This document shows, one piece after another, positions 5,369 through 11,568 of a stretch of 31,767 nucleotides of DNA. Source of the stretch: a virus; IMG/VR virus record IMGVR_UViG_3300033155_000623, positions 1-31,767 of that record. One strand, written 5' to 3'. Position 1 is the stretch's first letter. The number at the start of each line of letters is the position of its first letter. A program made the translations under genes and the position numbers. Under the pieces are notes generated by a model. That model ran no database searches. It saw nothing but the letters and a program-made list of their open reading frames with translations, and had not been told where the DNA came from.

Positions 5369-5415
5369 GTAATGTGAAATTAAACTGTGTTTATCCTTGA
5401 GTATTCTCTATTAGT

Positions 5416-5423
5416 GATAAATA
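5416..5423 (+). promoter_or_regulatory. Second, proximal late promoter element for the subtilase operon
   Basis: GATAAATA followed by C lies 38 nt before the subtilase ATG at 5462. A predicted leader of about 33 nt carries TTGGAG at 5446-5451 as the ribosome site. Two elements 55 bp apart suggest strong late expression. Confidence 0.55.
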
Positions 5424-5461
5424 CAATATAGTTATGCACACAAATTTTGGAGCCCAAACAC

Positions 5462-7261
5462 ATGAGTAAATTAAAAGTCACATTTGACAGTGATGTAAAT
5501 GCTAAGGCGTTTGCTGATAAGTGGAAACTGTCTGCGCCAGAAGGCGTTACACTAGAACTAGAGTGGCATCTAGCAGAAGATGCAATCAAAGATAGTACAT
5601 GTTCACTAGAACAAAAAGATGAAGATGAACATGAATTTATCGTTAAAGGCGACAAAGCCGTTATCGAGGCACTTGACGGATCTAGTGTAGAAGAAGATTT
5701 GGGCAAAGGATTCTTCAGAGTTAAGTCAACTAAAGGTTTAGCATTAGGTGAAGCAGTAGACGGCATTGATATTTCAGATTCTGACGTAGAGTTCTTAGGT
5801 ACAAGTTCTGTATCTGCTATGGATGTTACTGAAACTGCTGTAGAACCAACTAGTGATGAAGGTCAATGGGCACGTATTAGATGTGCATCTACTTATCGTC
5901 CACTTGTATCTTCTTACACAATGAACGATACAACATATGTTCAAAAACCTGAACTATATATTATGGATACAGGTATTGATGAGACTCATCCAGAGTTTCA
6001 AGGCTCAGATTTAGAAATTGAAAAATGGTGGTGTGTACCTGGTATTTGGGAAGACGGAGATCAAAGAGGTCACGGAACTTCAGTAGCATCAATGGCTGTA
6101 GGTACTAACTTAGGTATTTCAGACAATGTTAAAATTAAAGTGTGTAAAATTGCAGGTAACAAATTAGACGCAGACGGAAACTTAATTGATCCGGGCGAGC
6201 CAAGATCAGCATCTGTATTAGAATTAGGTCAAGCATTAGATGCAATTGAAGCAGACGTAGTGGCAGATCCTACTAAGACACGTATTTTAAATGTCTCTTG
6301 GGGTGTTGCACGTTCATCATACTTAGATGCTAAATTTCAATCACTTATGGATGCAGGTGTAACAGTAATTGCGGCGGCAGGTAACAGCGGTATTGATGTT
6401 GAATTAGTTACTCCAGCAGGTATTGATGATTGTATCACAGTAGGTGCAAGTGACAAATATGATATCCCAGCAGGTTTTAACAATATCTCACCAGGAGATG
6501 AAAACTTAACTACAGCGGCAGGTTTATCATTAGATATCTTTGCCCCAGGCGAGTCTGTAATGGTAGCACATACTGCAGGGTCAACTAACCCATATGGTAT
6601 CACATCTGGTACATCATTCGCGGCTCCGCTAGTCGCAGGTATATGTGGCGTAGTTGGATCAATGACAGAAGGTATGGTAACTGCTAACGAAATGAAACAG
6701 ACTATCCTCGACACTGCGACTCCAAACGCATTGTTATTTGAAGATACTACATTCAGTGAAAATCAAAACAGATTAGCATATGTATTCACTTCTGATCCTT
6801 TAGCAAACTATAAAGACTCAGGTATGGTATCATACTTAGGGGTTGTAAACTCTGTTGAAGACGGTGGAATGATTGTAGACTTGAACTCAAACTTAGACTT
6901 TAGTAACTGGTTAAAATTATACCCAGATGACAAGCCTACATATTCAATTACATTTTTAGACCCTGCTATTGAAGCAAAGTACGGTAAACATATGAGTTTA
7001 GATACAGATACAGGTGTCTTAACAATTGCAACTGCAAAAGATGTTGTTTTACCAGCAGAAACTAAACTAGAAATGGTAGAGTTTGTTGGACATGGTCAAA
7101 CAAGCAGAGTCAAATTATCAACTAACACTAACTTTTACTTCCATAGTAATTCATGGAATGACGAGAGTGCTTTAGAAACACTACAATCAGACGTAACACT
7201 AGCATTGACTGATGTTAACAGTATTAGTTTCTTTGCATACTGGGCTAGAAACATTAAGTAA
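5462..7261 (+). CDS. Subtilisin-like serine protease (peptidase S8), possible virion protein
   Basis: The ATG at 5462 (599 residues) is preferred over TTG at 5447 because a TTGGAG ribosome site precedes it. The triad is complete: MDTGIDETHPEFQG with D169, RGHGTSVASM with H204, and SGTSFAAPLVAG with S385; the oxyanion asparagine N308 is in AAAGNSG. Residues 1-160 form an acidic N-terminal part, possibly a propeptide or virion-binding domain. Residues after about 425 form a beta-rich C-terminal extension. No signal peptide is present, so it acts in the cytoplasm or is packaged. It heads the operon with the small membrane protein, lipoprotein and cysteine peptidase. Roles in protein maturation, host proteolysis or virion structure are all possible. 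Confidence 0.85.
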   Translation: MSKLKVTFDSDVNAKAFADKWKLSAPEGVTLELEWHLAEDAIKDSTCSLEQKDEDEHEFIVKGDKAVIEALDGSSVEEDLGKGFFRVKSTKGLALGEAVDGIDISDSDVEFLGTSSVSAMDVTETAVEPTSDEGQWARIRCASTYRPLVSSYTMNDTTYVQKPELYIMDTGIDETHPEFQGSDLEIEKWWCVPGIWEDGDQRGHGTSVASMAVGTNLGISDNVKIKVCKIAGNKLDADGNLIDPGEPRSASVLELGQALDAIEADVVADPTKTRILNVSWGVARSSYLDAKFQSLMDAGVTVIAAAGNSGIDVELVTPAGIDDCITVGASDKYDIPAGFNNISPGDENLTTAAGLSLDIFAPGESVMVAHTAGSTNPYGITSGTSFAAPLVAGICGVVGSMTEGMVTANEMKQTILDTATPNALLFEDTTFSENQNRLAYVFTSDPLANYKDSGMVSYLGVVNSVEDGGMIVDLNSNLDFSNWLKLYPDDKPTYSITFLDPAIEAKYGKHMSLDTDTGVLTIATAKDVVLPAETKLEMVEFVGHGQTSRVKLSTNTNFYFHSNSWNDESALETLQSDVTLALTDVNSISFFAYWARNIK

Positions 7262-7274
7262 AGAGGAAAATCTT

Positions 7275-7475
7275 ATGGATAAAATTTTATCAATTTTTAA
7301 TTTTGTTAAAGGCTGGGTCGGAGACAGACTTAAAGAACGTACATCTTGGGACGGCGCGGCACTTATTACAGCAGGAGTTTGTTTCTTGTTGTTCAAAGGC
7401 ATTGCAACTTTAGTTGCTTGGGCCGCTATCGCATACGGTGCATGGACTTTATGGAAAAAAGAATACAGCAAGTAA
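7275..7475 (+). CDS. Small membrane protein (66 aa), possible holin-like
   Basis: The start ATG 7275 follows AGAGGA by 7 nt. The protein has an amphipathic N-terminus (MDKILSIFNFVKGWVGDRLK), then one long or two short hydrophobic segments from about residue 28 to 58 (ALITAGVCFLLFKGI, then LVAWAAIAYGAWTLW), and a KKEYSK tail. It lies 13 bp after the subtilase and overlaps the following lipoprotein gene by 25 bp in another frame. Size, topology and place before a lipoprotein and a peptidase fit a holin or pinholin, but there is no sequence signature that proves it. Confidence 0.6.
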   Translation: MDKILSIFNFVKGWVGDRLKERTSWDGAALITAGVCFLLFKGIATLVAWAAIAYGAWTLWKKEYSK

Positions 7476-7648
7476 TTAGTCTATTCGCAATCTGCCTCAT
7501 TGTAGGTTGCACATCATTACCCGAAGAACCAAAAGGCCCCACAGAAATGACAGGGGAGCCCGTCAATATTGTCCTTAAAGGACAAAAAGAAATGTGTGAA
7601 CGTGAACCTGAATCAATACTTTGTAAAGAGGAAGAAGTAGATGAGTAA
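7451..7648 (+). CDS. Small lipoprotein (65 aa), possible Rz1-like spanin
   Basis: ATG 7451 gives MEKRIQQVISLFAICLIVGC, a short lipoprotein signal with lipobox IVGC and acylated Cys at residue 20, followed by a proline- and glutamate-rich mature part with two more cysteines near the end (MCEREPESILCKEEE). The mature part is about 45 residues, in the size range of o-spanin lipoproteins such as Rz1, and like Rz1 the gene starts inside its neighbour. No long periplasmic coiled-coil i-spanin partner is seen. It overlaps the cysteine peptidase gene by 8 bp. Confidence 0.6.
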   Translation: MEKRIQQVISLFAICLIVGCTSLPEEPKGPTEMTGEPVNIVLKGQKEMCEREPESILCKEEEVDE

Positions 7649-8042
7649 GGAAATCGCAGATAAAGTTCACGCATTAGTCGAAAGTAAATTCACTTACTTA
7701 CATGATGACAAGCAATATATGCAAGCCGAACATTGGACTAGTCATGCTGATGAAGTATTAGCAGGAGAAGACTTCAGTGATGATTGTGATGGTTTTGCTA
7801 ATACATGTGCAGAATTATTAATCAAAGAAGGCATTGACAAATCAGATGTATCTGTGATATACTGTGTAACTGAAACAGGTGAGGATCATTTAGTTTGTGG
7901 TGTTGCTATCGATGGCAAAACATACATCTTAGAAAACAGATATGATAATCCTTATGATTGGAAAAGCAAACCAAAGTATGATTTTAAATACTTTATGAAG
8001 TTTGATGATCCTGGACAATGGTTCAAAGTCAGTAACTCGTAA
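7641..8042 (+). CDS. Transglutaminase-like cysteine peptidase (BTLCP-like)
   Basis: The 133-residue protein resembles the bacterial transglutaminase-like cysteine proteinases (PF06035 type): FSDDCDGFANTCAELL with the likely nucleophile C49, EDHLVCGVAIDGKTYILEN with H83, and N99 or a nearby Asp as third residue. ATG 7641 follows GAGGAAG by a few bases. There is no signal peptide, so access to the wall would need a holin. Family members include regulatory periplasmic proteases and phage-encoded forms. Here it could act as endolysin or peptide-crosslink hydrolase, by inference from its neighbours. Confidence 0.65.
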   Translation: MSKEIADKVHALVESKFTYLHDDKQYMQAEHWTSHADEVLAGEDFSDDCDGFANTCAELLIKEGIDKSDVSVIYCVTETGEDHLVCGVAIDGKTYILENRYDNPYDWKSKPKYDFKYFMKFDDPGQWFKVSNS

Positions 8043-9500: not shown

Positions 9501-10063
9501 TAGAAATAAAAAAGATTACGTTTGAAGATACGTTGATATTATGGAAAGAGGGTTTGCCTAATATGTCATTAGAACCATGTAGTGCAATGAGTTGTATGAA
9601 AAAAATGGTACTTAATGAGAATGATGAATATAATCAAGTTGATCATTATGACTTAGAAAATCAAAAGTTTACTCCTACATTTTGGGGTGCATTTTATGAA
9701 GACAAATTGATAGGATGTAATTCTGGTCATATGACCCTAGATAGATTATATAGATCAAGAGGATTATATGTAAAAGAAGAATACAGAGGTCAACGTGCAG
9801 GTCAAAAACTTTTGTTAAAAACTATATCACAAGGTGTGCATGAAAAAGCAATAGGTATTTGGAGTTATCCTAGACGAGAAGCCTGGATAACTTATCACCA
9901 CGTCGGCTTTTTGCTATCTTCTCACTCTTTTAACTTTGGTTGGGAATCTAATGAAGACGGTCAAGAAAATTCAAGGTGTCTTAGAGTTATAGACTCGGTA
10001 GAAGTTAGAAAACTTGAAAATGAAAAAGGAGATATATCTCCCTATTGGCCTGACAAAAAGTAA
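9497..10063 (+). CDS. GNAT-family N-acetyltransferase
   Basis: The 188-residue protein contains SRGLYVKEEYRGQRAGQKLLLKTI, the acetyl-CoA binding strand beta4 and the Q/R-x-x-G-x-G/A loop, followed by motifs typical of the fold (GIWSYPRREAWITYHHVGF). It would acetylate an amine on a sugar, a small molecule or a protein. AGGA upstream of ATG 9497 and the ATGA overlap indicate coupling to the 2OG oxygenase. The 3' end overlaps the - strand microgene at 10042 by 22 bp. Confidence 0.75.
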   Translation: MIEIKKITFEDTLILWKEGLPNMSLEPCSAMSCMKKMVLNENDEYNQVDHYDLENQKFTPTFWGAFYEDKLIGCNSGHMTLDRLYRSRGLYVKEEYRGQRAGQKLLLKTISQGVHEKAIGIWSYPRREAWITYHHVGFLLSSHSFNFGWESNEDGQENSRCLRVIDSVEVRKLENEKGDISPYWPDKK

Positions 10064-10206
10064 GTACCGAGCAGAAGAACTGAGATCGTTCCTAAAAATA
10101 GTGAAGCAAGGAGGAATGCAAAGATCAATATATTTGAAGCAGTCACATCAATTGGTCCACTCGGCTTACCCAAGCCCATCAGGGCTTTTACTGCATTTTT
10201 AATCAA
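10042..10206 (-). CDS. Small hydrophobic protein (54 aa from TTG, 45 aa from ATG)
   Basis: Reading from TTG 10206, which overlaps the upstream stop, or from ATG 10179, the product ends with SNILIFAFLLASLFLGTISV and LLLGTYFLSGQ. This is one long or two close membrane segments after a short polar start (GLGKPSGPIDV). The stop is at 10042-10044, convergent with the GNAT gene. It is the last of five coupled small ORFs. No family was recognised. The exact start is uncertain because neither site has a strong ribosome-binding sequence. Confidence 0.45.
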   Translation of the reverse strand: MIKNAVKALMGLGKPSGPIDVTASNILIFAFLLASLFLGTISVLLLGTYFLSGQ

Positions 10207-10370
10207 AACAAATATGAGTTAAGTAACATCACTGCTCCCATCATACCCAAGCACATGACTTGAATGATTGCGGGAACTACTACGAACAGTTTCATTACAC
10301 TGAAGTCTCCCTTCATAAAGAAGTCTTCTTCAAACCAATCTTTCTGTTCTTGTGGTGTTGCGTTTTTCAT
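10203..10370 (-). CDS. Small membrane protein (55 aa)
   Basis: ATG 10370 gives MKNATPQEQKDWFEEDFFMK, then a hydrophobic segment (MKLFVVVPAIIQVMCLGMMG) reaching the C-terminus NSYLF. The ATG shares its A with the stop of the upstream 43-aa ORF (TAATG), the usual sign of termination-reinitiation. The polar acidic N-terminus and C-terminal membrane helix suggest a tail-anchored peptide. Function unknown. An alternative in-frame start at 10430 would overlap the upstream ORF heavily and is less likely. Confidence 0.55.
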   Translation of the reverse strand: MKNATPQEQKDWFEEDFFMKGDFSVMKLFVVVPAIIQVMCLGMMGAVMLLNSYLF

Positions 10371-10501
10371 TATATGTATGCGATTTGAGCCATGCAAACA
10401 AACATAGATGACCAAAGCAATGCATAACATAATGCTTCTACTTTTTGATCTATCTTTTTGAAAATGCCTGACTTGTCTATTACTAATTTAATAGTATTCA
10501 T
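10370..10501 (-). CDS. Small protein (43 aa)
   Basis: ATG 10501 is preceded by GGAGTATT, a good ribosome site, and overlaps the upstream stop as ATGA. The peptide starts MNTIKLVIDKSGIFKKIDQK and continues with a moderately hydrophobic stretch (ALCYALLWSSMFVCMAQIAY). The TAA stop overlaps the next ATG. Function unknown; it belongs to the coupled microgene chain. Confidence 0.5.
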   Translation of the reverse strand: MNTIKLVIDKSGIFKKIDQKVEALCYALLWSSMFVCMAQIAYI

Positions 10502-10638
10502 AATACTCCTGTATGTCTAATCTGTGATTGTTGTACTTGTCTTAATGTTGAATAGATACCTGCCCCACCATTATCCATGATGTGTAAAGATACCATTAAC
10601 ATCGAATAGAAACTTAACCTAATAGTTTTTATCATCAT
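10498..10638 (-). CDS. Small protein (46 aa)
   Basis: Start ATG 10638 (or 10635) follows AGAGAAATATT. The peptide begins MMIKTIRLSFYSMLMVSLHI and has a glutamine-rich tail (TLRQVQQSQIRHTG). Its TGA overlaps the next ATG by 4 bp, and it begins 22 nt after the preceding ORF. The hydrophobic N-terminus could be a weak membrane or signal segment. Function unknown. Confidence 0.45.
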   Translation of the reverse strand: MMIKTIRLSFYSMLMVSLHIMDNGGAGIYSTLRQVQQSQIRHTGVL

Positions 10639-10659
10639 AATATTTCTCTGTGTGTATGT

Positions 10660-10761
10660 TCATGCTAATGGACTAATAGCCATAATAGAAATACAAAATA
10701 GAGTAATCAAGCAAAACAATTCTAACTTGTCCGCTACTCCCTCTTTTTGTCGCCCTGTCAT
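10660..10761 (-). CDS. Very small membrane peptide (33 aa)
   Basis: ATG 10761 is preceded by AAGGGTAATACC, giving a usable ribosome site. The peptide MTGRQKEGVADKLELFCLIT continues LFCISIMAISPLA, a polar head and a single hydrophobic helix. It is the first ORF of the microgene chain, with late-type elements upstream. Small size limits certainty. Confidence 0.45.
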   Translation of the reverse strand: MTGRQKEGVADKLELFCLITLFCISIMAISPLA

Positions 10762-10825
10762 GGTATTACCCTTATAAATGTGATTAATAATAATTTATAA
10801 CGTGAGGTTATAAATGTTTCGACTC

Positions 10826-10833
10826 TATTTATC
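10826..10833 (-). promoter_or_regulatory. T4-type late promoter element for the microgene chain
   Basis: GATAAATA on the - strand, 64 nt upstream of ATG 10761. The AT-rich sequence between holds a further weak TATAAAT at about 10796-10803 and AAGGG near the start codon. Nothing else was seen in 10762-10863. Confidence 0.4.
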
Positions 10834-10863: not shown

Positions 10864-10894
10864 AAAAAAAGGCGCCAATCGATTGAGAGGCGCC
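10864..10894 (-). terminator. Rho-independent terminator of the outer-membrane protein gene
   Basis: On the - strand, two GGCGCC blocks form a 6-bp GC-only stem around a 12-nt loop and are followed by seven T. It lies 18 bp after the stop of the gene at 10912. This is a textbook intrinsic terminator. Confidence 0.85.
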
Positions 10895-10911
10895 CTATGT
10901 TCTTAACTAAC

Positions 10912-11568
10912 TTAGAACGTGTAGATGTAACTTACGTATAAATTATCTTCATCTAAATGTCCTGAGTTATCATCAGCAGAAAATTCTGTCCAACCTACAG
11001 ATACACGACCTTTCGCCAAATCAAATCCTCTTGAAATTGACCAATGTGTTCCTATGCCTTCTCTGTCGCCATACGCCAGATCAACTACCTTTAAAAGGCC
11101 AGTTGAAAATTCTGTGTAGTCTGGTGCTTCGTCTTGTCCCATAAAATGCGACATTGTAACACCGGCTAGGGTTGCAGACAATAATATTTCTTCGCGGTCT
11201 AAAGACGAATCGCCTCTATATGCGTAATCTATATAGGCTACGTTAAAACCAATATGTTCCCAGTCTTTTTTAAGACCAATAACAGTATCGATTTCGTGTG
11301 TGGCTTTGCCATCACCGAAGTCTACTTCTGATGCCCATACACTTCCATACATACCTAACCATTCTGCATCTAAACTTGCAGAAAGTTGATGGTTACCTAT
11401 GTGCTGTGACTGACCTCTGAAGATATAGTCTGATGATACGCCAACAGTCCCGCTCATTGTTGGAGCGGCGTTGACACCTGATGCAATACAAACTAGTGAT
11501 AGTGCTATCACTAATTTTATTACGTTATCGAAATGAGCCGAAATAAGGCCCTTTATGTTTTCTAACAT
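10912..11568 (-). CDS. Outer-membrane beta-barrel protein, TIGR02001/Gcw_chp-like
   Basis: ATG 11568 follows AAAGGAG by 6 nt. The 218-residue product has a signal peptide (hydrophobic IKLVIALSLVCIASG, likely cleavage after VNA at residue 34), then SGTVGVSSDYIFRGQSQHIG, the hallmark start of the TIGR02001 family of proteobacterial outer-membrane proteins. Alternating beta strands follow (YGSVWASEVDF, IGFNVAYIDYAY), and it ends in YVSYIYTF, a C-terminal aromatic residue as recognised by the BAM complex. A phage gene for an exported outer-membrane barrel is unusual. It could change host permeability, adsorption or superinfection. It has a perfect TATAAATA late element upstream and its own terminator. 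Confidence 0.8.
   Translation of the reverse strand: MLENIKGLISAHFDNVIKLVIALSLVCIASGVNAAPTMSGTVGVSSDYIFRGQSQHIGNHQLSASLDAEWLGMYGSVWASEVDFGDGKATHEIDTVIGLKKDWEHIGFNVAYIDYAYRGDSSLDREEILLSATLAGVTMSHFMGQDEAPDYTEFSTGLLKVVDLAYGDREGIGTHWSISRGFDLAKGRVSVGWTEFSADDNSGHLDEDNLYVSYIYTF

Follow-up and report, generated by a model that had tools for sequence, protein, structure and literature searches.

A conserved chain of five microprotein genes in uncultured marine T4-like phages, with a probable role in respiratory electron transfer

Gene content of the locus

The window analysed here is the whole 31,767-nucleotide stretch of the IMG/VR virus record IMGVR_UViG_3300033155_000623. Between a GNAT gene and the gene for a TorF/Gcw_chp outer-membrane protein, its minus strand carries five short frames, named A to E (Table 1), all of which were found where the first-pass annotation had placed them and with the sizes that it had given. 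None of them exceeds 75 codons, as had been remarked, the longest mechanically called ORF being of 75 codons, and the reported couplings between consecutive frames are present: B and C join as ATGA, C and D as TAATG, and D and E overlap as TTGA, with 21 nt between A and B. C has an AGGAG site. E and the GNAT gene converge, and their 3′ ends share the final 22 nt of E. For the start of E, the 54-aa version that begins at the overlap with the D stop codon is preferred to a 45-aa alternative, because ATG or GTG is present at that position in relatives and because the E homologue in the bacterial host genomes (see below) begins at the same overlap with D. When the 759-nt region was shuffled 3000 times with its dinucleotides kept, a chain of five such ORFs arose only once.

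The earlier description of these frames as containing mostly one hydrophobic helix each agrees with their hydropathy. The best 19-residue KD values clearly indicate one TM segment in A (2.39), D (2.24) and E (2.62); the value is weaker in C (1.66), for which such a helix is probable, and weak in B (1.14), which hardly qualifies. For both D and E, AlphaFold2 predicts a short helix together with a single long one (mean pLDDT of 80 and 87, respectively). Protein A has a conserved E ahead of its TM helix and a conserved P close to its C-terminus, and B is the fast-diverging member of the cassette.

Table 1. Positions of the microprotein genes and of the elements upstream of them in the window.
Feature	Position	Strand	Description
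Microprotein E	10042..10206	-	54 aa from TTG; GxGK motif followed by one TM helix
Microprotein D	10203..10370	-	55 aa; short N-terminal helix and long TM helix; core member
Microprotein C	10370..10501	-	43 aa; KSGIFKK...ExLCYAMLWGS; one C-terminal hydrophobic helix
Microprotein B	10498..10638	-	46 aa; ATG start; N-terminal half weakly hydrophobic; conserved G..LR motif
Microprotein A	10660..10761	-	33 aa; ATG start; single C-terminal TM helix
Conserved upstream element	10783..10833	-	Late-promoter-like ATAAATAGAGTCGAAA, then palindrome TTATAACnnnnnGTTATAA
Terminator-like hairpin	10866..10898	-	GGCGCC...GGCGCC and T-run 3′ of the outer-membrane protein gene, read directly
TorF/Gcw_chp outer-membrane protein	10912..11568	-	Upstream neighbour of the cassette

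The core of the ATAAATAGAGTCGAAA...TTATAACnnnnnGTTATAA element is invariant in seven cassette loci, and the ATAAATA upstream of A resembles the T4 late promoter. Since TATAAATA is not enriched across the whole window (4 observed versus 4.2 expected), only position and conservation point to this element as a putative late promoter of A–E. The hairpin separates the outer-membrane protein gene from the cassette, and this gene is apparently a transcription unit of its own. Homologues of the outer-membrane protein, with 32–38% identity, are present in all 12 SAR86 genomes searched, which would also fit a SAR86-like host, but the family is a broad one.

Other small genes were noted in the window. 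A 51-aa microprotein with one TM segment and a basic tail (MDFQTLLAIAIIAGVVFLVAKKRKGKSSGG..., 11776-11624, minus strand) is encoded between the methyltransferase and outer-membrane protein genes, and is also kept in one of the related loci described below (L002). Three overlapping plus-strand genes (7275-8042) come after the subtilase gene. They code for a helical membrane protein of 66 aa, a putative lipoprotein of 58 aa and a cysteine peptidase of the BTLCP type (PF06035, E 4e-11), and are a possible candidate for a lysis-like or envelope group. Also near the subtilase gene, a short minus-strand frame (5394-5477) gives a weak score with the profile of C (E 0.03) and recurs in L001, L002 and L072.

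Conservation and selection

Relatives of the locus were gathered via the upstream outer-membrane protein, which led to nine IMG/VR loci (L001-L009). Of these, L001 is identical to the window across the cassette region, and in L002, L003-L006 and L007/L008 the cassette is intact, with its order kept and its overlaps nearly so. The first-pass annotation had proposed a comparison of synonymous and nonsynonymous change in related phages, and this comparison indicates purifying selection on every member: pooled pN/pS lies between 0.17 and 0.51 (A 0.48, B 0.46, C 0.17, D 0.26, E 0.51), with the lowest value for C. For comparison, the outer-membrane protein has a value of 0.25, and both wrong frames of the cassette give 0.7–2.0 and contain many stops. 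Broken frames in relatives, which had been named as the sign against a functional set, were not encountered, the frames being intact in the related lineages. The five frames are a genuine conserved coding cassette; an origin as chance ORFs was rejected on the grounds of purifying selection and conservation.

The remaining locus, L009, lacks the cassette and carries in its place a speD-like S-adenosylmethionine decarboxylase gene (6795-7178; PF02675, E 6e-15), which makes the cassette position a swap site.

Searches of Pfam, PHROGs, NCBIfam and PADLOC returned nothing above noise for any of A–E, and the set is thus absent from the curated family libraries, as its earlier characterization as unrecognised implied. 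In profile searches of the PDB and in Foldseek, D gave no match and E and A gave noise, and none of these three could be recognised as similar to a known subunit of an oxidase or of bc1. Among annotated phage records, searched at the nucleotide and protein level, no relative was found of the region, of the outer-membrane protein, of D or of the cytochrome c discussed below. INPHARED likewise yielded neither D nor this cytochrome c, and a second query with D returned from annotated phage records only noise in Klebsiella and Erwinia phages.

Distribution and gene order in phages

Among the IMG/VR phages, profile searches reached 46 loci with D and 19 with C, and a six-frame iterated search brought the number of distinct variants to about 30 for each of A, D and E. 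These are bona fide phage genomes, as indicated by the T4-type capsid protein Gp23 in the records of relatives, including the 128-kb record G487, and by phage-type genes inside the window (NrdA/NrdB, PAAR and others). The genes for D and E are adjacent and stop/start coupled in nearly all phage loci, and those for A, B and C vary in place: the window has the order A-B-C-D-E, and B-A-C-D-E (L027, L029), A-B-D-E (L020, L023, L033) and D-E-A (L037-L042) were found elsewhere.

Two further genes were observed next to phage cassettes. A gene for a two-cluster (4Fe-4S) ferredoxin lies directly downstream in L021 (5372-5695) and L052 (5250-5510), and in several phages, among them L027 (5458-6402) and L029, the cassette is followed by a gene for a 314-aa multi-pass membrane protein that belongs to no known family.

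Redox carriers within the phage cassettes

Genes for periplasmic-type redox carriers are embedded in several of the phage cassettes. In L077, a pseudoazurin gene is part of a single run with the order B-A-C-pseudoazurin-D-E. Its product has a signal peptide and all copper ligands intact, scores 131.8 bits against an NCBIfam cut-off of 109.85, and matches solved pseudoazurins at E 4e-25; it shares 63% identity with the pseudoazurin encoded next to D in SAR86. In L025 the order is A-cytochrome c-B-D-E, and the membrane-anchored cytochrome c encoded between A and B is 47–56% identical to a SAR86 carrier over 69–79 residues.

A scan for this cytochrome c returned 209 viral stretches, of which 80 were kept; A, B, D or E directly flanks the cytochrome gene in 55 of these 80, a figure that includes many near-duplicate loci, so that such co-occurrence counts overstate the number of independent events. 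Pseudoazurin was found on eleven viral contigs, with microproteins beside it in three of them: L303, which is the contig of L077, and L306 and L307, both of which have it together with D. In L310, pseudoazurin stands in tandem with cytochrome c. A second clade of D (D2) has cytochrome c as its neighbour in phages, whereas the homologue of D2 in SAR86 (E 1e-27) adjoins pseudoazurin.

The window's own cassette, on its 31.8-kb fragment, has no carrier gene. No carrier was found in its closest long relative, G487 (128 kb, possibly incomplete), and of 15 cassette records searched, all of which may be incomplete, G501 alone yielded a cytochrome c elsewhere in the record. The microproteins thus do not depend on having a carrier encoded in cis; linkage to a redox carrier was observed for the family and not for the window copy.

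Homologues in SAR86 chromosomes

A scan of genomes with D identified ten bacterial loci, nine of which are titled SAR86; the tenth comes from an unassigned gammaproteobacterial single cell and has the same gene order as in SAR86. These loci lie in housekeeping DNA and several are from single-cell assemblies, on which grounds prophages or contamination as the source of the host copies were rejected. Within the SAR86 order, D is present in 27 of 121 genomes, and a class-wide sample of 369 genomes yielded no convincing further D, only two weak matches.

In 25 of the 27 D-bearing genomes a pseudoazurin gene adjoins D on the same strand, and in one SAR86 clade D, E and pseudoazurin form an overlapping operon, with E located between D and the secreted blue copper protein. 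Since 85 of the 121 genomes of the order encode a pseudoazurin, this protein is often found without a recognised D. Homologues of A were detected in four of five SAR86 genomes (E 1e-6 to 1e-7), where the gene is located just upstream of one for a secreted glutathione peroxidase. Homologues in a cellular, non-phage context were in this way found for A, D and E; no homologue of C was found in 12 SAR86 genomes.

As a recipient for the electrons, each of the eight SAR86 genomes examined has one heme-copper oxidase, of the aa3 type where it was read. No recognised microproteins are present beside the SAR86 cox genes, and D, E and A are not adjacent to cox. At one SAR86 locus, the C-terminal domain of an anchored carrier is a cytochrome c in three genomes, and a pseudoazurin takes its place in a further one; this domain swap was observed between L159 (8491-9078) and L156-L158, which have the anchor segment in common. 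Heme and copper carriers are thus interchangeable, and the microproteins go with either kind.

Proposed function and alternative explanations

The host homologues of A, D and E, the linkage of D and E to pseudoazurin in SAR86, and the carriers linked to the cassette in phages lead us to propose, with a probability of about 0.7, that A–E are a phage auxiliary cassette for respiratory electron transfer, consisting of single-pass membrane subunits of SAR86 type. Several findings count against it: the cassette of the window is without a carrier, and most other cassette records searched yielded no cytochrome c; D, E and A have no recognised likeness to oxidase or bc1 subunits and lie away from the cox genes in SAR86; and no host homologue of C was seen in 12 genomes. 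According to this proposal, a T4-type late promoter would drive expression of A–E late in infection, and the proteins would enter the inner membrane and associate with the bc1/aa3 cytochrome c oxidase segment of the host or dock a periplasmic carrier there. In a SAR86-like host, the carrier would connect bc1 with the aa3 oxidase, and electron flow, proton-motive force and ATP would hold up during the shutdown of host synthesis. The version in the window would provide membrane subunits only, and would work with the carrier of the host or with one encoded beyond the 31.8-kb fragment. The partner complex, the direction of the effect and the identity of the host as SAR86 are inferred.

It is conceivable, though we advance this only tentatively, that the phage remodels the terminal oxidase or the bc1-oxidase supercomplex of its host, with microproteins that replace or add supernumerary subunits and so set the feed from heme versus copper carriers. 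Small size and a single TM segment, as in respiratory-oxidase subunits, are indicated by hydropathy and, for D and E, by the AlphaFold2 models; likeness in sequence or fold to the described small oxidase subunits was not found in Pfam, NCBIfam, the PDB or Foldseek. If such remodelling were true, D, E and A of SAR86 would be an undescribed set of respiratory-chain subunits in a very abundant ocean heterotroph.

The tight linkage to carriers, and not to cox genes, would also fit factors for carrier maturation or anchoring (copper or heme delivery, tethering) in place of oxidase subunits. This is unlikely, however, since the phage cytochrome c already bears its own N-terminal anchor segment, the same microprotein families serve copper and heme carriers, whose maturation needs differ, and carrier-free cassettes are common. 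Microproteins commonly function as modulators, and dominant-negative subunits that throttle or re-route host respiration (e.g., to a phage ferredoxin, or for oxygen protection) could be envisaged, ferredoxin genes adjoining the cassette in L021 and L052; yet the intact carriers with their full ligand sets look like supplementation and not like inhibition, and we hold such throttling to be distinctly improbable.

Lysis, superinfection exclusion or host takeover, as suggested in the first-pass annotation, found no support. Proteins that are small, have a single TM segment and are encoded in what is probably a late transcription unit of the phage could form pores, set the timing of lysis or block DNA entry, but neither a holin or spanin match nor an adjacent muralytic enzyme was found, the neighbours being the GNAT and TorF-type protein genes with no endolysin among them, and PADLOC and PHROGs gave no match to defence or other families. 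Moreover, the chromosomal homologues in SAR86 lie beside pseudoazurin or glutathione peroxidase genes, and the phage versions have carriers embedded in them; in view of these host homologues and embedded carriers, lysis and exclusion were rejected as highly improbable.

Relation to known systems

The nearest precedent for a respiratory electron-transfer cassette is provided by plastocyanin (petE) and the other photosynthetic electron-transport genes of cyanophages, for which our search gave matches in 172 records, named petE or plastocyanin where annotated. A phage electron-transport model has been described (PMC5082946). The cyanophage genes and the present cassette both involve a host-derived, phage-borne blue copper carrier or electron-transport part in T4-like marine phages. 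They differ in that the present cassette would concern the respiration of a heterotroph of SAR86 type, in that its carrier is either a pseudoazurin about 27–35% identical to petE or a membrane-anchored cytochrome c, and in that it is an operon of novel single-TM microproteins. Supernumerary oxidase subunits of the CcoQ and CydX type resemble the microproteins in their length (30–70 aa), in having a short helix and one TM segment and in being encoded by scattered small genes, but there is no detectable match in sequence or fold, and the cassette is linked to a carrier and not to an oxidase operon. Viral oxidative-phosphorylation genes have been reported from an Indian Ocean virome, with SAR86 as a predicted top host (PMC3474794); these code for cbb3 oxidase subunit I and NADH dehydrogenase, and not for the A–E cassette.

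Our literature search found no prior report of a phage pseudoazurin, a phage cytochrome c or the A–E cassette, and the D-E-pseudoazurin operon of SAR86 was not named in any source found. Although the photosynthetic electron-transport genes of phages are familiar, neither the papers nor the family libraries and annotated phage records searched contained a recurrent phage cassette for the aerobic respiration of heterotrophs that is assembled from membrane proteins of fewer than 60 residues around a cytochrome c or pseudoazurin. Proteins of this size are smaller than gene finders usually call. The cassette points to candidates for new subunits in the respiratory chain of SAR86 and ties a group of uncultured T4-like phages to a putative SAR86-like host, and with it the question of whether phages keep host respiration going during infection becomes testable.

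The D-E-pseudoazurin operon of SAR86 has homologous D and E with similar stop/start overlaps. It differs from the phage unit in lacking B and C and in having A elsewhere, whereas the phage unit gathers A–E and may lack the carrier. In other SAR86 genomes (L212, L214, L215 and L221, at about 1490-1650), an E-like single-TM microprotein was observed (E 6e-4 to 9e-3), the gene for which adjoins genes read as electron-transfer flavoprotein and NfuA-like.
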